DNA from: Clostridia bacterium | GTDB taxonomy: Bacteria; Bacillota; Peptococcia; DRI-13; UBA5745 | Length of the DNA: 64,000 nt | Assembly: GCA_018434325.1 (NCBI GenBank) | Contig: JAHDPO010000004.1 | Coordinates: forward strand, 124,001-188,000 | Direction: 5' to 3' | Made by a program: the position numbers and the translations under genes | Part shown: piece by piece, positions 616-35,705 of the stretch | How the letters are laid out: every line of letters starts with the position of its first letter | Numbering within the stretch: position 1 is the first letter of the stretch | Notes under the pieces: generated by a model | Told to the model about the DNA's origin: nothing | Databases searched by the model: none | What the model saw: only the letters and a program-made list of their open reading frames with translations

Positions 616-3594
616 ATGGGACAATCCACCGCTTGGGTTTTTTTAGATCTGGAAACCACCGGCCTTCGATCTGACCGGGACAAAATCATGGAAATCGGCT
701 TGGTACGCTATAGTGCTGAAGGGGAAAGAAGGACCTGGCAGCAGCTGGTTAATCCGGCCGTGACCCTTGATCCTTTCATCAGCCGGCTGACGGGGATTTC
801 CGGAGAGATGCTGGCAGAAGCCCCTGCTTTATCGACGATCAAGGATGAAGCAAGGGAGCTGCTGGATGATGCCATCATCATTGCGCACAGCGCCGCTTTT
901 GATGTGGGCTTTTTAGAGCAGCAGCTGGGCATCAAGCCGGAGCAAATCCATGTTATCGATACGATTGAGATGGCCAAGGTTCTTTATCCCGGCCTCCGCT
1001 CTTACAGCCTGAGAAGTCTGGCCAGAAATTTTCAACTGACGGCTCTTCCCGGCCACCGGGCTTTGGAAGACGCCCTGGCTTTAGAGCAGTTATTTCTCCT
1101 GTTGGCAGCCAAAGCCTTTAGTCTGCCTGCTTCAGTATTGGAGCAGGTTCTTGTGGCTTTCGGTGGCCAGGAACGGGGGCTGGTCAGCTTTTTTACAGAG
1201 TTTTTCATGGGCCGGCAACCGGCTTGGCTGACCAAGGCACTAAAGGACCGTCAAAGCCAAGATTTTATTCCGGCCGCTGCGGCGGCAGCGGATTTGGAGG
1301 ATTCGGCAGATTGGCAGGAGGCTAAAGGACAGACGTCGGTATTTGTTTCGGAGCCTGCCAATGAAGACAGCGCCGCTATAGCTAAACGCGAAAGAGAAGA
1401 GCAGGCCTTGGCCTGGGAATTCTGGTCAAAGGGCCATATGGCCGGGATATTGTCTCCCGGCGGCGCTCTGGCCGGCCAAAAAGAGAATTTTCAGCACCGG
1501 CCCGGACAAGTGGAAATGCTTGAGGCTGTGGCCAAAGCCTTTGCCAGCTCCCGTTATTTGATGGTGGAGGCTCCTACGGGCATCGGCAAATCCCTGGCTT
1601 ATCTGATCCCGGCCCTATGCTGGGCTAAGGCTACCGGGCAGCGGGTGATCGTGGCTACTCATACCATAGCTTTGCAAGAACAATTGTTCGCCAAGGACGT
1701 GAGGCTCTTAAAAGAGGTTCTGCCTTTCCCTTTTCGCAGTGCTTTGCTAAAAGGCAGAGGCAATTATCTTTGCTTAAACCGCTTTCGCCAGGTTCTCAAT
1801 CAGGGCAAGGAGCTGATCTGGGGTGAACGGATTTTGCTGGCCCGCCTGACTCTCTGGCTGGCGGAAGGCGCCAGGGGCGATCTGGATGACATCCACCTTT
1901 TAGGGCCGGAACGGGAGTGGTTTGCTCAAATGGCTTCTTCCCGGGAAACCTGCCAGGGCAATCAATGCCCCTACTATCGGCAGTGCTTTTACCAAAAGGC
2001 AAAGCAGGAAGGGGCCGCTGCCCAATTGGTTATCGTTAATCACGCTCTGCTGCTGGCCGGGGCCAGGCTGGGTGAAGGCGTAATACCGAAGGCCGGCTTT
2101 TTGATTATCGATGAAGCTCATCATTTGGAAGAAGAAGGGACAAAACAATTTACCGATGTTTTTTCTCTTTTAGAATATGAAAAAAAATTACAGCAGCTCC
2201 ACAAACGGCGGGATGTTTTTGGGCGGCCCGGCTTTTTGCAGTATCTTAAAGAGTACCGCCAGCAAGGCTTTGCGGCGCTGGAAGCTATTGAGCCTTATTT
2301 GGAGCAGATGGAAAAACAAATTAAGGCCGTCATGCGCCGGATCAACAGTCTCCAGGGAATACTGCAGAACAGCACCTTGCCGGAGGTGTTCCGAATCAAG
2401 CCGGGCAACCCCAGGGGCACAAATCTGCAAGGCATTCTGACGGATCTGGATAATTTGCTGGTCATGGCCGGAGAGCTTAAGGAGACGATTACCGGACTGG
2501 GCCGGCTCCTTGAAGGCGATGAGGGCAAAAAGTTTGAGGAAACCTGGCTGAAACAGCAACTGATGCTCTTTGAAGGCGTTTGTGCTGAAACACAGCTGCT
2601 GGAGCGTTTTCTGGCGGGTGTGGAGCAGAGAATGATCAGAAATAAGCCGGCAATTGATGAGAAAGTCATAAATCAGGAACCGGCGGATAACAATATAGAA
2701 GCGGAAGCTCAAGTTTACTGGATGCAGCGGGATCTGCGGCAAAATGATATCTCCCTGTGTCTGACGCCTTTAAATACGGCAGCCTGCTTTCAGCAATATC
2801 TTTTTAACGAAAAGGAATCGGTTATCCTGACGTCAGCCACCCTCAGCGTCAACGGCGGCTTTGATTATTGCCGCCGCCAGCTGGGCATTGATCCTGAGCT
2901 ATTGGATACGAAGCTGCTTTCCTCACCCTTCAATTATGCCCAGCAAGTGCTGCTATTGTCGGACAAGGATTTGCCGGATCCGGCTAAGACGGCGGACTCA
3001 GCCTATAATCTGGCCTTAGCCCGTTCCTTGGAGGTCTTGCTTGCAGCCTGCGGCGGCCGTTCCATGGTGCTTTTTACGTCTCACAAACAGCTGCGGGCTA
3101 TGTACGAGGCCTTGCAGCAGCCCTTGCTTTTAATAGGCCTGGAACTCTTTGCCGACGGTTTGAACGGCAGCCGCAGCACATTGCTGGAGGAGCTGCGCAC
3201 CAACGAAAAAGCCGTAGTTTTTGGGGCCAATACCTTTTGGGAAGGGGTGGATCTTCCCGGTTTGTATTTGACATCCCTGTTGATTGTCCGTTTGCCCTTT
3301 TCACCGCCAGGCCAGCCGCTGATTGAAGCCAGGACGGAGAATCTTGAGAAAGAGGGAAAGGACCCCTTTTATCATTACAGCTTACCCCAGGCTGTTTTGC
3401 GCTTCAAACAAGGCTACGGCCGGTTGATTCGCACAGCGGAGGATTGGGGCGTAGTGGTAATTTTAGATAATCGGGTTATTAATAAACGCTACGGGCAGAT
3501 TTTTTTGCAATCCTTGCCCGACGGACGTTGCTTTGGCGGATCGCCCAAGCTGCTGGCTGAAAAAATCAAGGAATGGAAAAATAGATTTCTTTAA
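616..3594 (+). CDS. dinG: DinG-family helicase with N-terminal DEDDh exonuclease
   Basis: A 992-residue fusion. Residues ~7-165 form a DnaQ-like 3'-5' exonuclease (FLDLETTGL near residue 9, AHSAAFDVGFL, then HRALEDALAL). The rest is an XPD/DinG superfamily 2 helicase: Walker A APTGIGKS at ~319-326, DEAH at ~499-502, and C-terminal motifs including GANTFWEGVDLPG. Cysteines 386, 446, 451 and 457 have the C-x59-C-x4-C-x5-C arrangement expected for the DinG 4Fe-4S cluster. Family role: unwinding DNA (R-loops, stalled forks) in the cytosol, with nuclease activity from the first domain. There is no close ribosome site; the start is 2 bases after ahcY, suggesting translational coupling. Intact in all visible motifs. 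Confidence 0.93.
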   Translation: MGQSTAWVFLDLETTGLRSDRDKIMEIGLVRYSAEGERRTWQQLVNPAVTLDPFISRLTGISGEMLAEAPALSTIKDEARELLDDAIIIAHSAAFDVGFLEQQLGIKPEQIHVIDTIEMAKVLYPGLRSYSLRSLARNFQLTALPGHRALEDALALEQLFLLLAAKAFSLPASVLEQVLVAFGGQERGLVSFFTEFFMGRQPAWLTKALKDRQSQDFIPAAAAAADLEDSADWQEAKGQTSVFVSEPANEDSAAIAKREREEQALAWEFWSKGHMAGILSPGGALAGQKENFQHRPGQVEMLEAVAKAFASSRYLMVEAPTGIGKSLAYLIPALCWAKATGQRVIVATHTIALQEQLFAKDVRLLKEVLPFPFRSALLKGRGNYLCLNRFRQVLNQGKELIWGERILLARLTLWLAEGARGDLDDIHLLGPEREWFAQMASSRETCQGNQCPYYRQCFYQKAKQEGAAAQLVIVNHALLLAGARLGEGVIPKAGFLIIDEAHHLEEEGTKQFTDVFSLLEYEKKLQQLHKRRDVFGRPGFLQYLKEYRQQGFAALEAIEPYLEQMEKQIKAVMRRINSLQGILQNSTLPEVFRIKPGNPRGTNLQGILTDLDNLLVMAGELKETITGLGRLLEGDEGKKFEETWLKQQLMLFEGVCAETQLLERFLAGVEQRMIRNKPAIDEKVINQEPADNNIEAEAQVYWMQRDLRQNDISLCLTPLNTAACFQQYLFNEKESVILTSATLSVNGGFDYCRRQLGIDPELLDTKLLSSPFNYAQQVLLLSDKDLPDPAKTADSAYNLALARSLEVLLAACGGRSMVLFTSHKQLRAMYEALQQPLLLIGLELFADGLNGSRSTLLEELRTNEKAVVFGANTFWEGVDLPGLYLTSLLIVRLPFSPPGQPLIEARTENLEKEGKDPFYHYSLPQAVLRFKQGYGRLIRTAEDWGVVVILDNRVINKRYGQIFLQSLPDGRCFGGSPKLLAEKIKEWKNRFL

Positions 3595-24103: not shown

Positions 24104-24132
24104 TTGTATTTTTTCTGCTGATGCGTTATAAT
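24104..24132 (+). promoter_or_regulatory. Promoter of rpsB
   Basis: TTGTAT, 17 bases, TATAAT. Confidence 0.75.
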
Positions 24133-24138
24133 AACCAG

Positions 24139-24270
24139 CGGTGTAAATCCACACGCCTTTGGACCGGAAGCCAGGTGCCTGCAAGGGTGGCGGGCCGGGA
24201 TGAAGAGGGCGGAGGCTGCGGCGGCGGAGTAATCTCTTGTTGCCGGAGAAAAACAAAAATTGAAGGAGGT
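24139..24270 (+). promoter_or_regulatory. GC-rich rpsB leader, possible structured regulatory RNA
   Basis: About 130 bases between the promoter and the ribosome site, far richer in G than its surroundings, with short complementary pairs (GGTGT/ACACG; CCAGGTG/CCTGC). Ribosomal protein S2 operons in other bacteria are autoregulated through their leaders; whether this one is cannot be told from sequence alone. Confidence 0.35.
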
Positions 24271-24276
24271 GTTCGT

Positions 24277-25020
24277 ATGGGCGTTATTTCCATGAAGCAA
24301 TTATTGGAAGCAGGTGTGCACTTTGGTCATCAGACCCGCAGATGGTGCCCCAAAATGGCCCCATACATCTTTACGGAGAGAAACGGGATCTATATTATTG
24401 ATCTGCAGAAAACCGTAAAGAAAGTTGATGAAGCTTACGAATTTATCCGTGCCACAGTTACTGAAGGCAAGCATATCATGTTCGTAGGCACCAAGAAGCA
24501 GGCTCAGGAGACCGTTAAAGAAGAAGCTGACCGTTGCGGTATGTTTTACGTAAACGAGAGATGGCTGGGCGGTACCTTGACCAATTATCCTACCATCCAA
24601 AAACGGATCCAGCGTCTCAAAGAGCTGGAGAAGATGGAGGCAAACGGTACTTTTGATGTATTGCCCAAGAAAGAAGTGGCAAAACTTAAAGGTGAGATGG
24701 AAAAACTGGAACGCTTTCTGGGCGGCATCAAGGATATGCCCGGTTTACCCGGCGCCATTTTCGTCATTGACCCCCGGAAAGAGCACATTGCCATTGCAGA
24801 GTGCCATCGTTTAGGTATTCCTATCGTAGCTATTGTGGATACTAACTGCGATCCCGATGAGATCGATTATGTTATCCCCGGCAACGACGACGCTATCCGT
24901 GCAGTAAAGCTGCTGGCTGCCAAAATGGCCGATGCGGTTTTAGAGGCCAATCAGGGCCAGGCTGCCGAAGAGGCTCAGATGCTTGAAGAAGCAGCCATGG
25001 CTGCCGGAGAAGCAATGTAA
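24277..25020 (+). CDS. rpsB: Small ribosomal subunit protein uS2
   Basis: 247 residues from [20 protein letters not shown]; the longer open frame is rejected because AAGGAGGTG sits before this ATG. It carries the S2 signatures [12 protein letters not shown] and [20 protein letters not shown]. It helps assemble the 30S head/platform with bS1. A four-way-junction repeat and a terminator lie between it and tsf. Confidence 0.98.
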
Positions 25021-25039
25021 CCAGTCCAAGCCGGACATA

Positions 25040-25124
25040 ATACTATTCTGCGATTAAAATAGGGAATATTTTAATCTGGCAATTCATGATTGCCACTGCG
25101 CCAGAGGCGCAGGCAGATTAGTAT
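25040..25124 (+). repeat. Four-way-junction repeat, copy 1
   Basis: Outer stem ATACTATTCTGC (25040-25051) with GCAGATTAGTAT (25113-25124), 11 of 12 pairs. Inside are three hairpins with no base between them: 25052-25076 (10-bp AT stem), 25077-25095 (TGGCAAT/ATTGCCA) and 25096-25112 (CTGCGCC/GGCGCAG). Near-identical in reverse orientation to 44286 and 57047. Confidence 0.9.
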
Positions 25125-25137
25125 AAACTGCCAAACC

Positions 25138-25168
25138 GGGCGGGGGATGAGCCCCTGCCCTTTTTTTG
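25138..25168 (+). terminator. Terminator between rpsB and tsf
   Basis: GGGCGGGG/CCCCTGCCC hairpin followed by seven T. Confidence 0.85.
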
Positions 25169-25206
25169 AAAAGCGATGATGACAAGCAAGGAGGATATCT
25201 ATAGTC

Positions 25207-25851
25207 ATGATTACATCTGCAATGGTTAAAGAATTAAGAGAACGTACCGGGGCAGGCATGCTGGACTGCAAAAATGCCTTAACCGAAAAAAATGGCGATG
25301 TAGAAAAAGCCATTGAATACTTGAGAGAAAAAGGCCTGGCTGCCGCAGCCAAAAAATCCGGCCGTATTGCTGCCGAGGGCGTTTGCGAGTCCTACATTCA
25401 CGGCGGCGGCCGTATCGGCGTTTTGCTGGAGCTCAACTGTGAGACCGACTTTGTGGCCAAAACTGACGAGTTCAAGGGTTTGGCCAAAGATATCTGCATG
25501 CAGATTGCCGCTTCCAAGCCGGAATTTGTGCGCCGGGAAGATGTGCCTGCCGACGTGGTGGAAAAAGAAAAAGAAATTTTCACTTCCCAGGCCCTTAATG
25601 AAGGAAAACCTGCCAACGTTGTAGAAAAAATGATCGTGGGCAGAATCGAAAAATATTATAAAGAAATCTGCCTTTTGGAGCAGCCCTTCATTAAAGATCC
25701 CGACAAGACCATCAATCAGCTTCTGGTGGAAAGGATTGCCACCATCGGTGAGAATATCAACGTCCGCCGTTTTGTACGCTACGAGCTGGGCGAGGGTCTG
25801 GAGAAAAAGAAAGACAACTTCGCTGAAGAGGTTATGGCCCAACTCAAATAA
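25207..25851 (+). CDS. tsf: Elongation factor Ts
   Basis: 214 residues; [25 protein letters not shown] is the EF-Ts N-terminal module, followed by the core subdomain ([22 protein letters not shown]). It exchanges GDP for GTP on EF-Tu. AAGGAGG lies 12 bases before the ATG, longer than usual, but no better start exists. A terminator precedes the gene and another follows, so tsf may be a separate transcript from rpsB. Confidence 0.98.
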
Positions 25852-26685
<834 letters not shown>

Positions 26686-26690
26686 TCGAA

Positions 26691-27248
26691 ATGTTAACAG
26701 CTATTTTAGCGGATGCGGAAGACAGGATGCAAAAATCAGTAGAATTTTTCCGTAAAGATCTGGCTACTGTCCGGGCGGGACGGGCTAATCCTGCCTTATT
26801 AGACAAGATCACCGTGGAATATTACGGTGCTGCCACCCCCCTTAACCAATTGGGAAATATCTCAGCGCCGGAGCCTCGGCTTTTGACGATCCAACCCTGG
26901 GATAAATCTGCCCTGGCTGCTATTGAAAAAGCCATTTTAAAATCGGATCTGGGCTTAAATCCTAATAACGACGGTTCGATTATCCGCCTGGCTATTCCGC
27001 AGCTGACGGAAGAGCGCCGCGCTCAGCTGGTCAAAACCACCAAGAAAAAGGGTGAGGATTGCAAGGTCAGCATCCGCAATATCCGCCGGGATGTGGTAGA
27101 CAAGATCAAAGCCGACGAAAAAGCCAAAACCTGTTCGGAAGATGATGCCAAAAAAGCCAATGATGATTTGCAGAAAGCTACGGACAAATATATTAAAGAA
27201 ATCGATAAAATCCTGGAAGCTAAAGAGAAGGAGATTATGGAAGTCTGA
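26691..27248 (+). CDS. frr: Ribosome recycling factor
   Basis: 185 residues; AGGGAGG before the ATG. Typical RRF: DRMQKSVEFFRKDLATVRAGRA, LDKITVEYYGAATPLNQLGN, and the C-terminal long helix ending EAKEKEIMEV. With EF-G it splits post-termination ribosomes. Its stop overlaps the start of a small following gene (TGATG). Confidence 0.98.
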   Translation: MLTAILADAEDRMQKSVEFFRKDLATVRAGRANPALLDKITVEYYGAATPLNQLGNISAPEPRLLTIQPWDKSALAAIEKAILKSDLGLNPNNDGSIIRLAIPQLTEERRAQLVKTTKKKGEDCKVSIRNIRRDVVDKIKADEKAKTCSEDDAKKANDDLQKATDKYIKEIDKILEAKEKEIMEV

Positions 27249-27451
27249 TGTGGTATGGACTGACCAGGGAGGAAGCGGCCTTGCGCTGCCGGGACTCAGG
27301 CATACCTTGCCGGTTTCTTGAAACCCGCGATCCCAAAGCCCTAGAGATCTCCGGCATTGCCAGGGTCATCCGGGCCCGGGAAGAAAAGGACGGTATTACT
27401 TTCCTGATCGGTTATTTCGCGGAAGAAAAAAAGCCGGTCTTTAGTTTATAG
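27248..27451 (+). CDS. Small protein of unknown function after frr
   Basis: 67 residues, MWYGLTREEAALRCRDSG onward; no membrane segment and no motif I recognise. Reality is supported by the one-base overlap with the frr stop (translational coupling), uniform codon use and a terminator right after. It contains two Cys (RCRDSGIPC) and a beta-rich C-terminal half (ARVIRAREEKDGITFLIGYF). Possibly a small nucleic-acid-binding or regulatory protein; that is only a guess. Confidence 0.65.
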   Translation: MWYGLTREEAALRCRDSGIPCRFLETRDPKALEISGIARVIRAREEKDGITFLIGYFAEEKKPVFSL

Positions 27452-27479
27452 GGATAGGGTACTGCGGTAGAATAGAACT

Positions 27480-27520
27480 GAGCGTCCGGGATTTGTCCGC
27501 AAATCCAGCGGCGCTCTTTT
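27480..27520 (+). terminator. Terminator before uppS
   Basis: GAGCG...CGCTC outer stem with an inner GGATTTG/CAAATCC stem, followed by TTTT and a second T-rich stretch. Confidence 0.75.
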
Positions 27521-27576
27521 CTGCTCTTTTTCCGACCTGTTTTTTGTTTTGGGTAGTATTTTGTCAAGCCATTTAG

Positions 27577-27582
27577 TATAAT
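27577..27582 (+). promoter_or_regulatory. -10 element before uppS
   Basis: TATAAT with no good -35; if used, the transcript starts near 27590 and excludes the most upstream ATG of the uppS frame. Confidence 0.4.
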
Positions 27583-27619
27583 GAAACATGATCTAAAAAT
27601 GCAGGAACAAGGTATAGCG

Positions 27620-28333
27620 ATGATGAAAAAAACTGCAAGCAAAAAGTTGACTCATTTGGCTATTATTATGGATGGTAATGGCCGCTGGGCTCAAAAAAGA
27701 GGTTTGCCCCGGGCTATGGGCCACCGGGCAGGCGTAGAAGCCCTGCGCAGGATCGTGGAGCTCTGTCCCGGCAATCAGATTGAGTATTTAACGGTATACG
27801 CTTTTTCCACGGAAAATTGGAAAAGGCCTCAGACGGAAGTACAAGCTTTAATGGCTTTGCTTAATGAATTTATCGATAAGGAACTGACGCTGTTGCATCA
27901 AAACGGTGTTTGTATCCGGGTTTTGGGCGATATTGAGCCCCTGGCGCCAAGCCTGCGCAAAAAAATCGATCACGCTATGGCGATTACCGCGCAAAATAAA
28001 AAATTGGTACTTTCCTTAGCCCTTAACTATGGCGGCCGGCGGGAGCTGCTTCAGGCGGCTAAGGCTTTAGCCTACCGGGCCTTGAAAGGTGAAAACCCGG
28101 AAAACTGGCAGGAAGATGACCTGGCGGCAGAGTTGTTTACCAAGGGTATGCCGGAGCCGGATCTGCTGATTCGTACCGGCGGTGATTTGCGGGTCAGCAA
28201 TTTTCTGCTTTGGCAGATTGCGTATACAGAATTATGGTGTACCGATATTTTTTGGCCCGATTTCGGAGAAGAAGAATTAATGGCAGCACTGGCCGCTTTC
28301 AAAGGCAGGCAAAGACGTTTTGGAGGTGTCTGA
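27620..28333 (+). CDS. uppS: Undecaprenyl diphosphate synthase (isoprenyl transferase)
   Basis: About 237 residues; two consecutive ATG at 27620 and 27623, chosen over 27581 because the likely -10 element lies at 27577. THLAIIMDGNGRWAQKRG carries the catalytic Asp, then GHRAGVEALR, VYAFSTENWKRP and LIRTGGDLRVSNFLLWQ. This cis-prenyltransferase makes the C55 carrier for wall precursors in the cytosol at the membrane. Followed 3 bases later by cdsA. Confidence 0.97.
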   Translation: MMKKTASKKLTHLAIIMDGNGRWAQKRGLPRAMGHRAGVEALRRIVELCPGNQIEYLTVYAFSTENWKRPQTEVQALMALLNEFIDKELTLLHQNGVCIRVLGDIEPLAPSLRKKIDHAMAITAQNKKLVLSLALNYGGRRELLQAAKALAYRALKGENPENWQEDDLAAELFTKGMPEPDLLIRTGGDLRVSNFLLWQIAYTELWCTDIFWPDFGEEELMAALAAFKGRQRRFGGV

Positions 28334-28336
28334 TTC

Positions 28337-29140
28337 ATGATGACGAGAATCATTAGCGCAGTTGTAGGCATACCGGTTATTCTCCTGCTGGTTTATTTGG
28401 GGCAGGCTTATTTTTTGGCGACGGTTATGGTTTTATCTCTTTTAGCTGCTACTGAATTGGGCAGGATGCTCAAGCGCATGGGCATAAAGGATATGCAGAC
28501 CTTTCTGTATGCCGGCGCTCTGCTTTTTCCTTTATTGCTTTATTATGAAGCCTCCTGGCTGCCGAATTTTCTGGCCTTATTCGTTTTTTCCGGCGCTTTA
28601 ATATCTTTAAATCAATATCCCGAGTCAAAATTAGGTGATTTGGGAGCTAACTTTTTCAGCATACTATATATAGCTTTTGGCTTTTCTCATTTCGTACTGC
28701 TTCGGCAAATGGATCAAGGGCTTCTCTTGGTTATCTATGCCTTTGTCGTTATTTGGCTGACCGATACGGGCGCTTATTTTACCGGCACCTATTTAGGAAA
28801 ACGGCCTTTTTTCCAGGAGATCAGCCCTAACAAAACTTTGGAAGGGGCTATCGGCGGCCTGGTTGCCGGCGTAATCGGTGCAGTTTTGTTCTGCGTATTG
28901 GTAAACCGCAAGATGGATTTAAATCATACAGGCTTTTTAATTTTGCTGTCGCCTTTTTTGTCGGCGGCAGGCCAGTTCGGCGATCTTTTTGAAAGCTCCT
29001 TAAAGCGCCAGGCCAGGGTCAAGGACTCCAGCCGGCTGATTCCCGGCCACGGCGGCATTCTCGACCGTTTTGACAGCGCTTTATGGGTTATTCCTTTGCT
29101 CTACCATTTATTGCAGCTGCGGATAAACATTTTTATGTGA
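28337..29140 (+). CDS. cdsA: Phosphatidate cytidylyltransferase
   Basis: 267 residues, about eight membrane spans, with the C-terminal CdsA signature SRLIPGHGGILDRFDSALW and SPNKTLEGAIGG before it. Makes CDP-diacylglycerol from phosphatidic acid and CTP, feeding PssA. Begins 3 bases after uppS. In most Firmicutes dxr comes next; here rseP follows directly. Confidence 0.97.
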   Translation: MMTRIISAVVGIPVILLLVYLGQAYFLATVMVLSLLAATELGRMLKRMGIKDMQTFLYAGALLFPLLLYYEASWLPNFLALFVFSGALISLNQYPESKLGDLGANFFSILYIAFGFSHFVLLRQMDQGLLLVIYAFVVIWLTDTGAYFTGTYLGKRPFFQEISPNKTLEGAIGGLVAGVIGAVLFCVLVNRKMDLNHTGFLILLSPFLSAAGQFGDLFESSLKRQARVKDSSRLIPGHGGILDRFDSALWVIPLLYHLLQLRINIFM

Positions 29141-29201
29141 TCAGGGCATAAACTAATGATAAACCAAAATAACCAAATTTAGTTTAGTGAGGAAATCACC
29201 C

Positions 29202-30257
29202 ATGTTAACACAGGTCATCGCTATTGTATTTGTATTAGGTGTTATTGTTATGATCCATGAGTGGGGTCATTTCATGGCTGCCAGAAGCATCGGCATTGCT
29301 GTGCAGGAGTTTGCCATCGGTGTAGGCCCCGCTCTTTGGAAAAAGCAAGGCAAAAATACTCTTTTTTCCGTGCGTTGCTTACCCGTAGGGGGCTATTGCC
29401 TTTTTGACTCCGACTTGGAAGGCCTGGATCACCGGGGCCGGCCTCTGTCCATTTTGGGCAGAAAAGCTCCCGCTAAAATCTATGTCTCTCTGGCGGGGCC
29501 GGTAATGAATTTTGTCTTGGCCTCACTGCTTTTTATGCTGCTCTTTTCTTTTATCGGCCTGACCGTAGGCTATGAGGCGGTAATCGGTGAGGTGCAGCCC
29601 GGATCTCCGGCTGAGTCTGCCGGTATTCTGGCGGGAGACAGGATTTTATCCATCGATGAGGAATCCCTTGCTTCCTGGCAGGATCTTAGCAGAATCTTAA
29701 GCGCCAAGGCCGGTCAGGAAAATCTGGAATTCGTCATGCAGCGGGGAGATCAGGAAGTTATCGTTCAGGTGACGCCTCGTTACAATGCAGAAGAAGGCCG
29801 GGCCCTTATCGGCGTGGTGGTGGATGGCAGCAAAACCATAACGGAAAAGGTCAATCCTTTCCAAGCCGTCTTTTTGGGACTGAAGCAAACCTTCATCATG
29901 ATAGCCGCTATGGTGGGCGCTATTATTCAGATGATTACGGGCCAGATCAGCGTCAGTGAAAATCTTTCCGGTCCGGTGGCTCTCGTTCAAATTATCGGCG
30001 AAACGGCCTCCAGCGGTTTTGTCAACACTTTGTTCCTCACCGCTTTTTTGTCAGTTAATCTGGGTATTATGAATCTGCTGCCGGTGCCGGCTTTAGACGG
30101 CGGTAAAATTGTTGTTTACATCATTGAGCTTTTGCGGCGCAAGCCCATGAAGCTGGAGGTGGAAGGCTGGCTTAATATGGTCGGCTTTGCCTTATTGATA
30201 TCCTTGATGCTTCTTCTGACCTTTAAAGATATCTTTAGAGTCTTTGGCGGTTCCTGA
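29202..30257 (+). CDS. rseP: Site-2 intramembrane zinc protease RseP/RasP
   Basis: 351 residues from MLTQVIAIVFVLG. HEWGH (His19-Glu20...His23) in the first membrane helix is the zinc site. A PDZ domain (~110-195, with GEVQPGSPAESAGILAGDRI) and NLLPVPALDGGKI (second metal motif) follow. It cleaves membrane-anchored anti-sigma factors and signal peptide remnants. The stop overlaps the ispG start. Confidence 0.96.
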   Translation: MLTQVIAIVFVLGVIVMIHEWGHFMAARSIGIAVQEFAIGVGPALWKKQGKNTLFSVRCLPVGGYCLFDSDLEGLDHRGRPLSILGRKAPAKIYVSLAGPVMNFVLASLLFMLLFSFIGLTVGYEAVIGEVQPGSPAESAGILAGDRILSIDEESLASWQDLSRILSAKAGQENLEFVMQRGDQEVIVQVTPRYNAEEGRALIGVVVDGSKTITEKVNPFQAVFLGLKQTFIMIAAMVGAIIQMITGQISVSENLSGPVALVQIIGETASSGFVNTLFLTAFLSVNLGIMNLLPVPALDGGKIVVYIIELLRRKPMKLEVEGWLNMVGFALLISLMLLLTFKDIFRVFGGS

Positions 30258-31378
30258 TGATAAATTATGCACCCGAAGAACAAGACAGCTTTATGATCAA
30301 GCGGCGCTTCAGCCGCCGGCTGCTGGTAGGCAGTGTGCCCGTAGGGGGCGACGCTCCCGTTTCTATTCAGTCCATGACCAATACCCTGACGGCCGACGCC
30401 GCCGCTACCCTGGAGCAAATCCGGGGCTTAGCCGCCGCCGGCTGCCAGATTATCAGAGTAGCCGTACCGACCCAGACGGACGCCCAGGCATTGGCGGAGA
30501 TAACGGCCGCCTCTCCCATACCGGTAATTGCCGACATACATTACGATTACCGTCTGGCCTTGTCTGCTTTAAAAGCGGGTATAGCCGGTTTGCGGATCAA
30601 TCCCGGCAATATCGGGGCAGCTTGGAAAATCAAAGAGCTGGTGACTGCCGCAAAAGAACGCAAAGTACCGATCAGGATAGGGGTTAACGGCGGTTCCCTG
30701 GAACCGGCCTTGTTGGATAAATACGGCGGCCCCACGGCGCCTGCTATGGTGGAAAGCGCCATGAAGCATATCGGTATTTTGGAGGATCTGGATTACCGGG
30801 AGATCAAGGTTTCCTTGAAAGCCAGCCACCTGCCGGTGATGCTGGCAGCCTACAGGGAAATCGCCGGCAAAATCGATTATCCCCTCCATTTGGGGGTTAC
30901 GGAAGCGGGCCTTAAATCCCAAGGCTTAGTCAAATCGGCGGTAGGCGTAGGCGCTCTCTTGGCCGAGGGTATCGGCGATACCATCAGGCTGTCTTTTACC
31001 GGCGATCCTATTGATGAAATCTACGGCGCCCGGCAAATTTTGGCCGCTCTTGAACTGATCCCCGGCGGACTGCAAATCATTGCCTGCCCTACCTGCGGCA
31101 GGACCAAGGTAGATCTGACTGCCTTAGTGGAGGAAGCTCAGGAAAAATTCGCTGATTTGCCGGTTCCCCCGGACAAAACCATAACCGTGGCCATTATGGG
31201 CTGCCCGGTCAATGGGCCCGGGGAGGCCAAGGGAGCTGATTTCGGCATTGCCTGCGGTAAGGACGCCGGCATATTGTTTGCAGCCGGCAAGCAGATAGCC
31301 AGACTGCCGGCAGATCAATTGGTGGATTCGTTGGTGACCCTTGTTTCTCAAGAGTTAAACCGTCTACCTAGGGGGTAA
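30257..31378 (+). CDS. ispG: 4-hydroxy-3-methylbut-2-enyl diphosphate synthase IspG
   Basis: 373 residues, ATG overlapping the rseP stop; an internal MIKRRFSRRLLVG at 30293 aligns better with usual IspG starts and may be the true start. A TIM-barrel part holds APVSIQSMTNT, and the 4Fe-4S ligands are Cys277, Cys280 and Cys316 (CPTCGR ... GCPVNGPGEA). This is the penultimate step of the MEP isoprenoid pathway. The gene order cdsA-(dxr)-rseP-ispG is conserved except that dxr is missing here. Confidence 0.97.
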   Translation: MINYAPEEQDSFMIKRRFSRRLLVGSVPVGGDAPVSIQSMTNTLTADAAATLEQIRGLAAAGCQIIRVAVPTQTDAQALAEITAASPIPVIADIHYDYRLALSALKAGIAGLRINPGNIGAAWKIKELVTAAKERKVPIRIGVNGGSLEPALLDKYGGPTAPAMVESAMKHIGILEDLDYREIKVSLKASHLPVMLAAYREIAGKIDYPLHLGVTEAGLKSQGLVKSAVGVGALLAEGIGDTIRLSFTGDPIDEIYGARQILAALELIPGGLQIIACPTCGRTKVDLTALVEEAQEKFADLPVPPDKTITVAIMGCPVNGPGEAKGADFGIACGKDAGILFAAGKQIARLPADQLVDSLVTLVSQELNRLPRG

Positions 31379-31380
31379 CC

Positions 31381-32094
31381 ATGGAAGATCAGCTAATCAT
31401 GGTATTTCGTATACTGCTTGCCACCGTCTTAGGCGGTGTGGTGGGCTATGAGCGGGAGCTGCATAATCGTTGGGCCGGTTTCCGAACCCATATTCTTGTT
31501 TGTGTAGGCTCCTGCCTGGTTATGATTACCTCAATTTATTTATCGACATCTTTTAGCGGCCAGGCCAATGCCGACCCCGGCCGCCTGGCTGCCCAGGTTG
31601 TCAGCGGCATCGGTTTTTTGGGCGCCGGCACGATTTTGCATTCCAGCTCCCATATTCGGGGCCTTACCACTGCCGCCAATCTGTGGATGATTGCCGGCGT
31701 GGGTCTGGCCGTGGGCTGCGGTCTTTATATCCCTGCCATCGTTACCACTTTCCTTGCTTATGTGATCTTGGAATACTTCGGTCCTTTAGAAAGCATGTTT
31801 CGCACTAAGCGGCTCAAAACCCCCTGGCTGCTGAACATTACGGCTATGGGCGATTCCTCAAGCCATAGCAACATTTTTGAGTTGTTGGATGTTTATGAGC
31901 TGGTCGTGCAAAATTTAAAAATGGATAATATACCTGGCGGCGTTGAGATGACTCTTGAAATCCAAGCTACTTCCTCATTTGACGAAGCACTTTTTATAGC
32001 AAAATTGCGTCAAATCAATAGTGTCAAGGAAGTAAGCCTTGCCTGCCTGAAAGAAGAGAACGGAGCCGAAAATAAAAGAGGCAAAAAATCCTAA
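31381..32094 (+). CDS. MgtC/SapB-family membrane protein
   Basis: 237 residues. MgtC domain: RILLATVLGGVVGYERELHN, RAGFRTHILVCVGS-like segment (here WAGFRTHILVCVGSCLVM), QVVSGIGFLGAGTILHSS and RGLTTAANLW, with about five spans, then a soluble ACT-like C-terminal domain. In pathogens MgtC aids growth at low Mg2+ and affects the F-type ATPase; in free-living Firmicutes the role is unclear. Two bases after ispG, so probably part of that operon. Confidence 0.9.
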   Translation: MEDQLIMVFRILLATVLGGVVGYERELHNRWAGFRTHILVCVGSCLVMITSIYLSTSFSGQANADPGRLAAQVVSGIGFLGAGTILHSSSHIRGLTTAANLWMIAGVGLAVGCGLYIPAIVTTFLAYVILEYFGPLESMFRTKRLKTPWLLNITAMGDSSSHSNIFELLDVYELVVQNLKMDNIPGGVEMTLEIQATSSFDEALFIAKLRQINSVKEVSLACLKEENGAENKRGKKS

Positions 32095-32132: not shown

Positions 32133-35100
32133 ATGGTAAACCATCCTTGGCATAGTTTGCTTTTGGCAGCAAAGACCCCCCTGCCTTACGAGAAAAGGCT
32201 GGAGGGTCTGCAAATAAAGGAAGTGGTGATTTCCCAAGATAAGCAAACTTGGGAAATCGCTTTTCTCAGCAGTTTTTCCGTTACAGAAGAAGAGCGGAGC
32301 CAGATTTTAGAGATATTGCGGCATAGCTTCGGCCGGCATTTCCAGTACCATCTGAATATTGAGGAAAGAGACGTGGCCCCCGATGTGGGAGAAATGCTGA
32401 AAACAGCTTTATCTTCACCGGAGATTGTACCCAGCACCCTGGCCGATCCGGAAGAGGAGGAGGAGCTGCTTAATCAAAGGCTGAAAGAGAAGCTTATCGG
32501 GCCAAAAGGCAAAAAACAAGGTCCCAGCCTGATTTTAGGCCGGAAGATCAGCGGCAGCCCCCGGCCTTTGAAAGAGATCCGGGAAGAAAGCATGAACACA
32601 ATTATTGAAGGCAAGGCCTTCCGGATCAATGATCAGCGTTTATTAAAGGCCGGTACCCAGCTTTACGATTTCGACGTCACCGATTATACGAATTCTCTCA
32701 AGGTCAAAGTTTTTCTTGATCCCAAAAGGCAAAAAAGCCTCAAGGCCGACTGGTTGAAAAAAAATGCCTGGTACAGGATGAAGGGCAGCGTCAAATACGA
32801 TCAATTTACGAAAGAGCTGGCTTTTTTTCCCGACGACATCATGGAAGGCGATTTTAACCTCAGGCAGGATAATGCGCCTGAAAAGCGGGTGGAGCTTCAC
32901 CTCCATACGAAGCTCAGCGCCATGGACGCCATGGCCACGCCGGAAGAGCTGATCAGTCAGGCCGTTGCCTGGGGCCATGAGGCTATAGCCATTACGGATC
33001 ATGGCGTGGTTCAGGCTTTTCCCGAAGCTATGAAGCTGGCCAAGGTTTCTAAAGACAAAACCCCGCCAATAAAAGTCATCTATGGTCTGGAAGGCTATCT
33101 CATTGACGGCGACGGCAAAGCTTATATGGAAGAGGCCCGCCGCCCCAAAAAAGGCGTGCGGGGCCAAAAAGAGGAGCTTAGCGAAGGCGAGCTTTTGGAT
33201 CAGGCAGAACGCCAGGGCAGCTGGCATATTATCATCCTGGCTAAAAACTCTGTTGGCATTAAAAATCTATATAAACTGGTATCCTTGTCTCACCTGGACT
33301 TCTTCTATAAAAAACCCAGAATTCCCCGCAGCGAGCTGATTCGCTTGCGAGAGGGCCTGATTATCGGTTCGGCCTGCGAGGCCGGCGAATTATTTCAGCA
33401 AGTACTGGCCGGAGCCAGTGAACAGACCTTGGAAAGCACCGCCGCTTTCTATGATTACCTGGAAATTCAGCCCATTAAAAATAATGAGTATCTTTTGCGC
33501 AATGGCCGGGTAGCCGATGAGGAGGCTTTAAGAGACTTCAACCGGCGGATTTTGGCCTTGGGCAGAAGGCTGGACAAGCCGGTAGTAGCCACAGGAGACG
33601 TCCATTTTTTGCAGCCGGAGGATGAAGTGTTTCGGCGGATATTGCAGGCCGGTCAGGGCTACAAAGATGCGGATATCCAGCCTCCCTTATATTTGCGGAC
33701 GACGGAAGAGATGCTGCAGGAGTTTGAATATCTGGGAGAAGAAGAAGCTTACCGGGTGGTGGTGGAAGCCACCCAAGCGGTGGCCCGCCAGGTGGAGTAT
33801 TTAAATCCCATTCCCGGAGAATTGCAGACGCCGAAGCTGCCCGGAGCCAAAGAAGAGGTAGAGCGAATGGTTCGGGAAAAGGCGGCGGCTCTCTACGGCG
33901 ACGCATTGCCGGAGTGGATACGGAGTCGACTGGAAAAAGAGATTAAATCAATTACGGAGTACGGCTATGCCGATTTATATTATATTGCTCACAAGCTGGT
34001 GAAATACTCCAATGAAAACGGCTATGTGGTAGGCTCCCGAGGCTCCGTAGGTTCTTCCCTGGTGGCTTTTCTGACGGATATTACGGAGGTCAATCCTTTA
34101 GCTCCTCATTACCGTTGCCCTAATGCCGGCTGCAAGCATGTGGCATTGGGAGACGTCTCCGTCTATGGCTGCGGCGCCGATATGCCGTCCATCAACTGTC
34201 CCCATTGCGGCACTTTGCTGGTCAAAGACGGCTTCAATATTCCTTTTGAAGTTTTTCTGGGCTTTGAGGGCGATAAGGTTCCGGATATCGATTTAAATTT
34301 CTCCGGCGAGTACCAGACCCAGGCCCAAAAATACACGGAAGAGCTTTTTGGCCGGGAAAATGTGTTTAAAGCCGGCACCATATCCACGGTGGCTGACAAA
34401 ACGGCCTATGGCTTCGTCAAAAATTACTTTAAAGACAGGACGCTGGTAGTCAGAGAGGCGGAGGTTGAGCGCCTGGTTCAAGGCTGCGCCGGCGTCAGGA
34501 GAACCACCGGCCAGCATCCCGGGGGCATCGTGGTATTGCCCAAAGGCGACGAAATTACCAATTATACGCCGGTCCAGCGGCCGGCGGATGATCCTAATTC
34601 TGAATTCGTTACCACTCATTTTGATTATCATGCCATCGATAATTGTCTCGTGAAGCTGGATATCCTGGGCCACGACGATCCCACAGTCATCCGTTTGCTG
34701 GTGCAAATGACCGGCAAGGATATCAGAGAAATCTATATGGATGACCAGGCAGTTATCTCTTTGTTTCAAAGCCCCGATGCTTTAGGCATTGATAAAAAGG
34801 AAAGCGGCATAGAAACCGGCTCCCTTGGCGTGCCGGAATTCGGCACCAGCTTCGTCCGGGGCATGCTGCTGGATACGAAGCCCGCCACCTTTTCCGATTT
34901 GGTGCGTATCAGCGGCTTCTCCCACGGTACCGACGTCTGGCTGGGCAACGCCAGGGATATTCTGAAAGACAATCTGGGTACCATGAAAGAGGTTATCGGC
35001 TGCCGGGATGATATTATGATCACCTTGATTCAGGCCGGCCTTAAGCCGAAGCATGCGTTTAAAATCATGGAGCAGGTTCGCAAAGGCAAAGGCCTTTCCC

Positions 35101-35705
35101 GGGAGGATGTGGAGGCTATGGAGGCAGCCAATGTGCCGGAATGGTATATCGGTTCCTGCCAAAAAATCAAGTATCTTTTCCCCAAAGCTCATGCCGTAGC
35201 CTATGTGACCATGGCCTTTCGCATTGCCTGGTTCAAGGTTTTTGAGCCCTTGTCCTTTTATGCCGCCACCTTTTCGGTGCGAGGCGGCTTAGACGGCACC
35301 ATCGCCGCCGGCGGCAGAGCCAGGGTAGAAGAAGCCATGGCCGATATCCGGGCCAAGCGGGAACGCAAGGAGGCCAGCGCCCGGGATGAAGACCTTTATA
35401 CGTCCCTGGAACTGGCCCGGGAAATGCTGCTGCGGGGGTTTGCCTTTGCGCCGGTAAGCCTGGAGAAATCCAGCGCCAATCGTTTTTTGGTGGAAGAAAA
35501 GCAATTGCGCCTGCCTTTTAACGCCTTGCCGGGCCTGGGCCTGAATGCGGCGCAAAGCATAGTGGAGGGCCGGGAGGAGAAGCCCTATCGCTCAATGGAA
35601 GATCTGCGACGTCGGGGCAAGGTAGGCAAATCCCTGCTGGAGGTATTGCAGCAGCACGGCGCTTTGGCGGGCCTGCCGGAAAGCGATCAGCAAACCATCT
35701 TTTAA
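32133..35705 (+). CDS. polC: DNA polymerase III alpha subunit PolC-type, lacking the exonuclease domain
   Basis: 1190 residues versus about 1440 in B. subtilis. Order: N-terminal domain; OB fold (~150-245, IIEGKAFRINDQRLLKAG); PHP domain (VELHLHTKLSAMDAM near 255, AITDHG); zinc knuckle (CPNAGCKHVA ... CPHCG); catalytic palm with PDIDLNFSGEY near 717 and KLDILGHDDP; C-terminal helix-hairpin-helix (LRLPFNALPGLGLNAAQS). In PolC a DEDDh exonuclease is inserted inside the PHP domain; here only ~39 residues (~326-364) join YLIDGDG to HIIILAKNS. AAGGAG lies 13 bases before the ATG, a long spacer. The reading frame is intact, so this is not a frameshift artefact. Confidence 0.95.
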   Translation: MVNHPWHSLLLAAKTPLPYEKRLEGLQIKEVVISQDKQTWEIAFLSSFSVTEEERSQILEILRHSFGRHFQYHLNIEERDVAPDVGEMLKTALSSPEIVPSTLADPEEEEELLNQRLKEKLIGPKGKKQGPSLILGRKISGSPRPLKEIREESMNTIIEGKAFRINDQRLLKAGTQLYDFDVTDYTNSLKVKVFLDPKRQKSLKADWLKKNAWYRMKGSVKYDQFTKELAFFPDDIMEGDFNLRQDNAPEKRVELHLHTKLSAMDAMATPEELISQAVAWGHEAIAITDHGVVQAFPEAMKLAKVSKDKTPPIKVIYGLEGYLIDGDGKAYMEEARRPKKGVRGQKEELSEGELLDQAERQGSWHIIILAKNSVGIKNLYKLVSLSHLDFFYKKPRIPRSELIRLREGLIIGSACEAGELFQQVLAGASEQTLESTAAFYDYLEIQPIKNNEYLLRNGRVADEEALRDFNRRILALGRRLDKPVVATGDVHFLQPEDEVFRRILQAGQGYKDADIQPPLYLRTTEEMLQEFEYLGEEEAYRVVVEATQAVARQVEYLNPIPGELQTPKLPGAKEEVERMVREKAAALYGDALPEWIRSRLEKEIKSITEYGYADLYYIAHKLVKYSNENGYVVGSRGSVGSSLVAFLTDITEVNPLAPHYRCPNAGCKHVALGDVSVYGCGADMPSINCPHCGTLLVKDGFNIPFEVFLGFEGDKVPDIDLNFSGEYQTQAQKYTEELFGRENVFKAGTISTVADKTAYGFVKNYFKDRTLVVREAEVERLVQGCAGVRRTTGQHPGGIVVLPKGDEITNYTPVQRPADDPNSEFVTTHFDYHAIDNCLVKLDILGHDDPTVIRLLVQMTGKDIREIYMDDQAVISLFQSPDALGIDKKESGIETGSLGVPEFGTSFVRGMLLDTKPATFSDLVRISGFSHGTDVWLGNARDILKDNLGTMKEVIGCRDDIMITLIQAGLKPKHAFKIMEQVRKGKGLSREDVEAMEAANVPEWYIGSCQKIKYLFPKAHAVAYVTMAFRIAWFKVFEPLSFYAATFSVRGGLDGTIAAGGRARVEEAMADIRAKRERKEASARDEDLYTSLELAREMLLRGFAFAPVSLEKSSANRFLVEEKQLRLPFNALPGLGLNAAQSIVEGREEKPYRSMEDLRRRGKVGKSLLEVLQQHGALAGLPESDQQTIF

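Follow-up and report, generated by a model that had tools for sequence, protein, structure and literature searches.

The polC gene of the window (the whole 64,000-nt stretch of DNA analysed) was found to encode a PolC-type DNA polymerase III alpha subunit that lacks the DEDDh exonuclease (Exo) inserted into the PHP domain of canonical PolC; a loop of 44 amino acids is present at the site instead, and the PHP metal site is complete. Proofreading is usually seen as the job of a DEDDh exonuclease, and the mycobacterial PHP exonuclease is the best-studied exception. In the explanation that we prefer, to which we assign a probability of roughly 60%, the gene would be the replicative polC on the chromosome of a Bacillota bacterium, the DEDDh exonuclease would have been inserted once into the PHP loop early in PolC evolution and later lost, and mismatched 3′ ends would most likely be removed by a zinc-dependent PHP exonuclease, in PolC and/or the co-resident DnaE1, with MutS and MutL backing up this proofreading.

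Identity and architecture of the gene

The ORF at 32133–35705 was shown to belong to the PolC type, as the whole protein exceeded the cut-offs of both PolC equivalog models (NF001688: 1422 bits, cut-off 873; TIGR01405: 1324 bits, cut-off 1043). Pfam matches were obtained for PHP, DNA_pol3_alpha, finger and HHH (HHH_6), and residues 144–1190 aligned co-linearly with G. kaustophilus PolC (3f2b), a crystal construct from which Exo was artificially removed (PMC3656037). Together, the 3f2b alignment and HHH_6 gave the domain order of PolC, with OB N-terminal to PHP, a zinc finger and a C-terminal HhH. A preliminary description had considered the OB, PHP, zinc and palm motifs intact; the zinc-finger cysteines 662, 667, 689, and 692 and the palm residues D718, D720, and D843 were invariant in the PolC alignment. 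The gene and its surroundings are organized as follows:

24121–32094, + strand: rpsB-tsf-pyrH-frr-uppS-cdsA-rseP-ispG-mgtC string, directly upstream of polC, a housekeeping chromosomal setting
32133–35705, + strand: polC, Exo-less PolC-type DNA polymerase III alpha subunit (1190-aa ORF)
32133–32552, + strand: shortened N-terminal region, residues 1–140, from the alignment
32553–32882, + strand: OB domain region, residues ~141–250, aligned to 3f2b
32883–33092, + strand: first half of PHP, residues 251–320, with ligands H256, H258, D265, H290, and E320
33093–33224, + strand: 44-aa loop, residues 321–364, at the Exo site of other PolCs
33225–33632, + strand: second half of PHP, residues 365–500, with ligands H365, C415, D489, and H491
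33633–35702, + strand: palm, zinc finger, fingers, tandem HhH and C-terminal clamp-motif region, residues 501–1190

The absence of the exonuclease noted in the preliminary description was borne out: the window PolC gave no Pfam match to RNase_T, and neither a [DN]xE[TSN] nor an H[AN]xxFD motif was found anywhere in the protein. The two PHP halves, described earlier as joined by a short linker of ~39 residues, are indeed connected by a loop that measures 44 aa when bounded by the flanking ligands E320 and H365. The corresponding interval spans 198–219 aa in complete Exo+ PolCs and 12–44 aa in the other Exo-less ones, except for a MAG of the same family (G003; L120), in which a loop of ~133 aa made of low-complexity AQT-type repeat is present at the Exo site.

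A PolC from the same genus (G002) was found to contain a 44-aa loop at the identical place. The two proteins showed 94.6% identity (dS 0.84, dN 0.028, dN/dS 0.033; PHP halves 0.04 and 0.08), and the window PolC is under strong purifying selection within the genus. The loop itself differs by 21 synonymous and 2 non-synonymous changes and is thus constrained. It shows few amino-acid changes although synonymous sites are saturated, and contains the basic stretches RRPKK and RGQK, which are partly common to the family. Exo was missing in every family member with a PolC spanning the site (G001, G002, G003, G004, and G006). An assembly or binning artefact that deleted part of the gene might be suspected in a draft of 70 contigs, but its probability is negligible given these relatives, and the loop of G002 at the matching place excludes a local assembly deletion.

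Compared with canonical PolC (3f2b, 9qpc), the catalytic part is co-linear and the PHP fold is similar (Z 38.7–42.9), whereas the DEDDh exonuclease carried by canonical PolC in the PHP loop is absent. With OB, PHP, Pol3, and HhH, no Exo, and a co-resident DnaE1, the protein corresponds to the Exo-less PolC variants of Timinskas et al. (2013; PMC3919608) and does not differ from them in kind, except that its loop is longer than most and its N-terminal region is shortened. The latter comprises ~160 aa ahead of the OB reference point, compared to 230–270 in typical PolCs. Of 72 Exo-less PolCs, 16 had fewer than 200 aa at this position, as against none of 43 Exo+ PolCs; these counts include one contig-end truncation among the 16 (L039) and are drawn from related sequences; besides the window gene, the shortening was seen in L022, L041, L045, L050, L061, L066, L097, and L098.

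Distribution and history of the Exo-less state

Among 31 genomes of the class that were at least 90% complete, counted with split or truncated genes taken into account, 26 had an Exo-less PolC, two had an Exo+ PolC, one PolC was cut by a contig end (G005) and two genomes had no PolC. In an evenly drawn sample of 149 genomes from the phylum, PolC was present in 113; Exo states, counted by model coverage and frame length, were Exo+ in 46 (one split over two contigs), Exo-less in 64, decayed Exo in one (G151) and contig-end truncation in two. The Exo-less share is thus ~57% of the PolC genomes, with examples in Desulfosporosinus fructosivorans, Moorella thermoacetica, Syntrophomonadaceae, Negativicutes, and Lachnospiraceae such as Cuneatibacter. 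For comparison, Timinskas et al. (2013) found Exo missing from 6% of PolCs, nearly all from Clostridia and Negativicutes (PMC3919608); the higher share found here is attributed to different, more even sampling. The Exo-less architecture is therefore not exceptional: most members of the class have it, and it has been published since 2013 (PMC3919608). Three genomes of the same order (G019, G020, and G021) are small (1.3–1.4 Mb) and contain DnaE1 but no PolC match, PolC having apparently been lost.

On trees of the PolC core, from which the Exo columns had been removed, the Exo state required 11–12 changes, at least five of them forced by well-supported branches, although such counts alone do not separate gain from loss. 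The Exo domains of PolC clustered together (SH-aLRT 92), to the exclusion of those from DinG, stand-alone and prophage proteins. One insertion followed by repeated losses would be the simplest reading of these trees. A move of Exo to a separate gene was rejected, since neither the DinG nor the stand-alone exonucleases fall within the PolC Exo group. No claim is made that the window PolC was acquired horizontally; it came out among other Clostridia in a first tree and, once family members were added, in a family-specific, long-branched clade. The placement of G003 in the latter tree should not be relied on, as one of its fragments was read in the wrong frame.

The PHP site and candidate proofreaders

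All nine ligands of the window PolC (HHDHEHCDH) agree with the HHDHEH[C/H]DH metal site of PHP proofreading exonucleases of the Mtb DnaE1 type, so that the metal residues proved to be retained as previously suggested. The nine ligands were intact in 72/72 complete Exo-less PolCs compared to 38/43 Exo+ PolCs, a comparison that is descriptive, with no formal test, as the sequences are related. A full-length AlphaFold model of PolC was weak (pLDDT 65) and was set aside for a PHP-only model built from 48 Exo-less sequences (pLDDT 90.9). This model matched PolC 9qpc (Z 42.9, rmsd 1.4) and Mtb DnaE1 5lew (Z 31.3, rmsd 2.4 over 271 residues), and the domain is accordingly predicted to have the complete fold of solved PHP structures. 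No PolC is known to us to have a demonstrated PHP exonuclease, and a literature search for experiments on a natural Exo-less PolC returned none.

Mtb DnaE1 proofreads through its own PHP site, and its loop at the Exo-insertion position, the same loop into which the DEDD exonuclease of canonical PolC is inserted, lines the PHP exonuclease groove (PMC5636811). The window loop aligns with this Mtb loop (residues 77–105), and the two proteins share the nine-ligand site and the adjoining long loop; they differ in that the Mtb protein has a DnaE-type domain order and its exonuclease activity has been shown. The PolC of G. kaustophilus, in which one ligand is missing, was reported to be without PHP exonuclease activity (PMC5636811). 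Conservation of the ligands could also reflect a structural role, such as has been suggested for the PHP domain of E. coli (PMC3666897).

DnaE1 of the same genome contains 9/9 PHP ligands (HHDHEHCDH), as was the case in other genomes wherever the sequence was complete, and PolC and DnaE1 were found paired nearly throughout. MutS and MutL are present. Extra DnaE copies in two genomes (G122 and G055) showed a D-to-N change in the PHP site. One genome with an Exo-less PolC, rated 100% complete (G016), gave no DnaE1 match at E ≤ 1e-100, which may be due to an assembly gap.

Two RNase_T genes were detected in the genome:

616–3594, + strand: DinG-type helicase with N-terminal DEDDh exonuclease (RNase_T match at window 637–1092)
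C48:33978–34442: stand-alone DEDDh Exo-BRCT protein (RNase_T match)

The neighbours of the latter (L124; G000:C48:26000–42000) include a tape-measure-like and a serine-recombinase-like protein, and the region is probably a prophage; the DinG fusion is the sole RNase_T gene outside it. The search for a stand-alone DnaQ that had been proposed earlier thus yielded only one, in a probable prophage, and no dedicated replacement. A conserved stand-alone epsilon was not found in this genome or its relatives in RNase_T searches, which cover one Pfam family and which an unrelated or very divergent nuclease would escape. DinG-sized fusions were near universal in the class whatever the Exo state of PolC, and stand-alone RNase_T genes were sporadic (10/31 genomes). 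Several Exo-less genomes, including single-contig ones, were found to lack an RNase_T gene altogether; two of these (G122 and G147) combine an Exo-less-length PolC with a DnaE1 containing 9/9 ligands.

The preliminary description argued that proofreading would need either a stand-alone DnaQ-like protein or the PHP domain. This logic is supported, and the data favour PHP: a conserved epsilon was not found in the RNase_T searches, and all 72 complete Exo-less PolCs retain an intact PHP site. Proofreading in trans by a DEDDh exonuclease, e.g., that of DinG or a stand-alone DnaQ-like protein, is very unlikely: both kinds occur in this genome, and B. subtilis DnaE3 is stated to be proofread in trans by the DnaQ domain of PolC (PMC12926913), but the stand-alone gene is located in the probable prophage and such genes are sporadic, DinG is also present beside Exo+ PolC (G023 and G025) and thus is not tied to the loss of Exo, RNase_T genes are entirely missing from some Exo-less genomes, and both kinds fall outside the PolC-Exo group. 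It is likewise doubtful, though not far-fetched, that PolC no longer proofreads and that DnaE1 performs accurate bulk synthesis with its own PHP site, loss of Exo being a step toward loss of PolC. This idea was raised by Timinskas et al. (PMC3919608) and agrees with the nearly constant pairing of the two polymerases, with two genomes of the same order, G019 and G020, that retain DnaE1 but have no PolC, and with the restriction of N-terminal shortening to Exo-less PolCs (16/72 vs. 0/43). Against it stand the strong purifying selection on PolC in the genus (dN/dS 0.033) and the PHP ligands kept in 72/72 Exo-less PolCs, for which a non-proofreading enzyme would have no obvious need. A point against the preferred explanation is the complete loss of PolC from some relatives (G019 and G020), so that the main replicase of this organism may be a different polymerase.

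Within the preferred explanation, PHP-based proofreading after loss of Exo, we infer that the PHP site cuts DNA and proofreads, with labour divided between PolC and DnaE1. We lean slightly toward a broader claim, namely that in much of Bacillota the DEDDh exonuclease of PolC was repeatedly lost and not replaced, so that two polymerases would be proofread only by zinc PHP sites, in some organisms without any RNase_T-family exonuclease. If Exo-less PolCs do proofread with PHP, PHP-only replication would be common in Bacillota, with a bearing on replication fidelity and on PolC-directed inhibitors.

Intact, dead and deleted exonucleases in family f29

The Exo-less kind of PolC is already known, and a series within family f29 of the phylum sample is a useful natural experiment, as PolC PHP function could be approached through close relatives that differ in whether Exo is intact, dead or deleted. 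The Exo catalytic set DEDHD is intact in G093 (L195) and G174 (L196). In G151 (L193) and L094, a 198-residue insert is present in which every one of the five catalytic residues has been replaced (AAGGE and AGGGE, respectively). G125 (L194), from the same genus as G151 and 92% identical to it in the PolC core, contains only a 39-residue loop, the ends of which are recognisably those of the insert. The PHP site was 9/9 in all five. In G093, G174, and G054, the PolC Exo was the sole RNase_T protein found, and no RNase_T gene was found in G151 and G125. According to a 2026 survey, it is PHP and not DnaQ that is inactivated in Pol III alpha subunits (PMC12926913); G151 and L094, both draft assemblies (L094 being a MAG), are counterexamples to this statement. 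Between these two, the dead insert gave a dN/dS of 0.37, higher than those of the PHP parts (0.14–0.15) and the polymerase (0.09).
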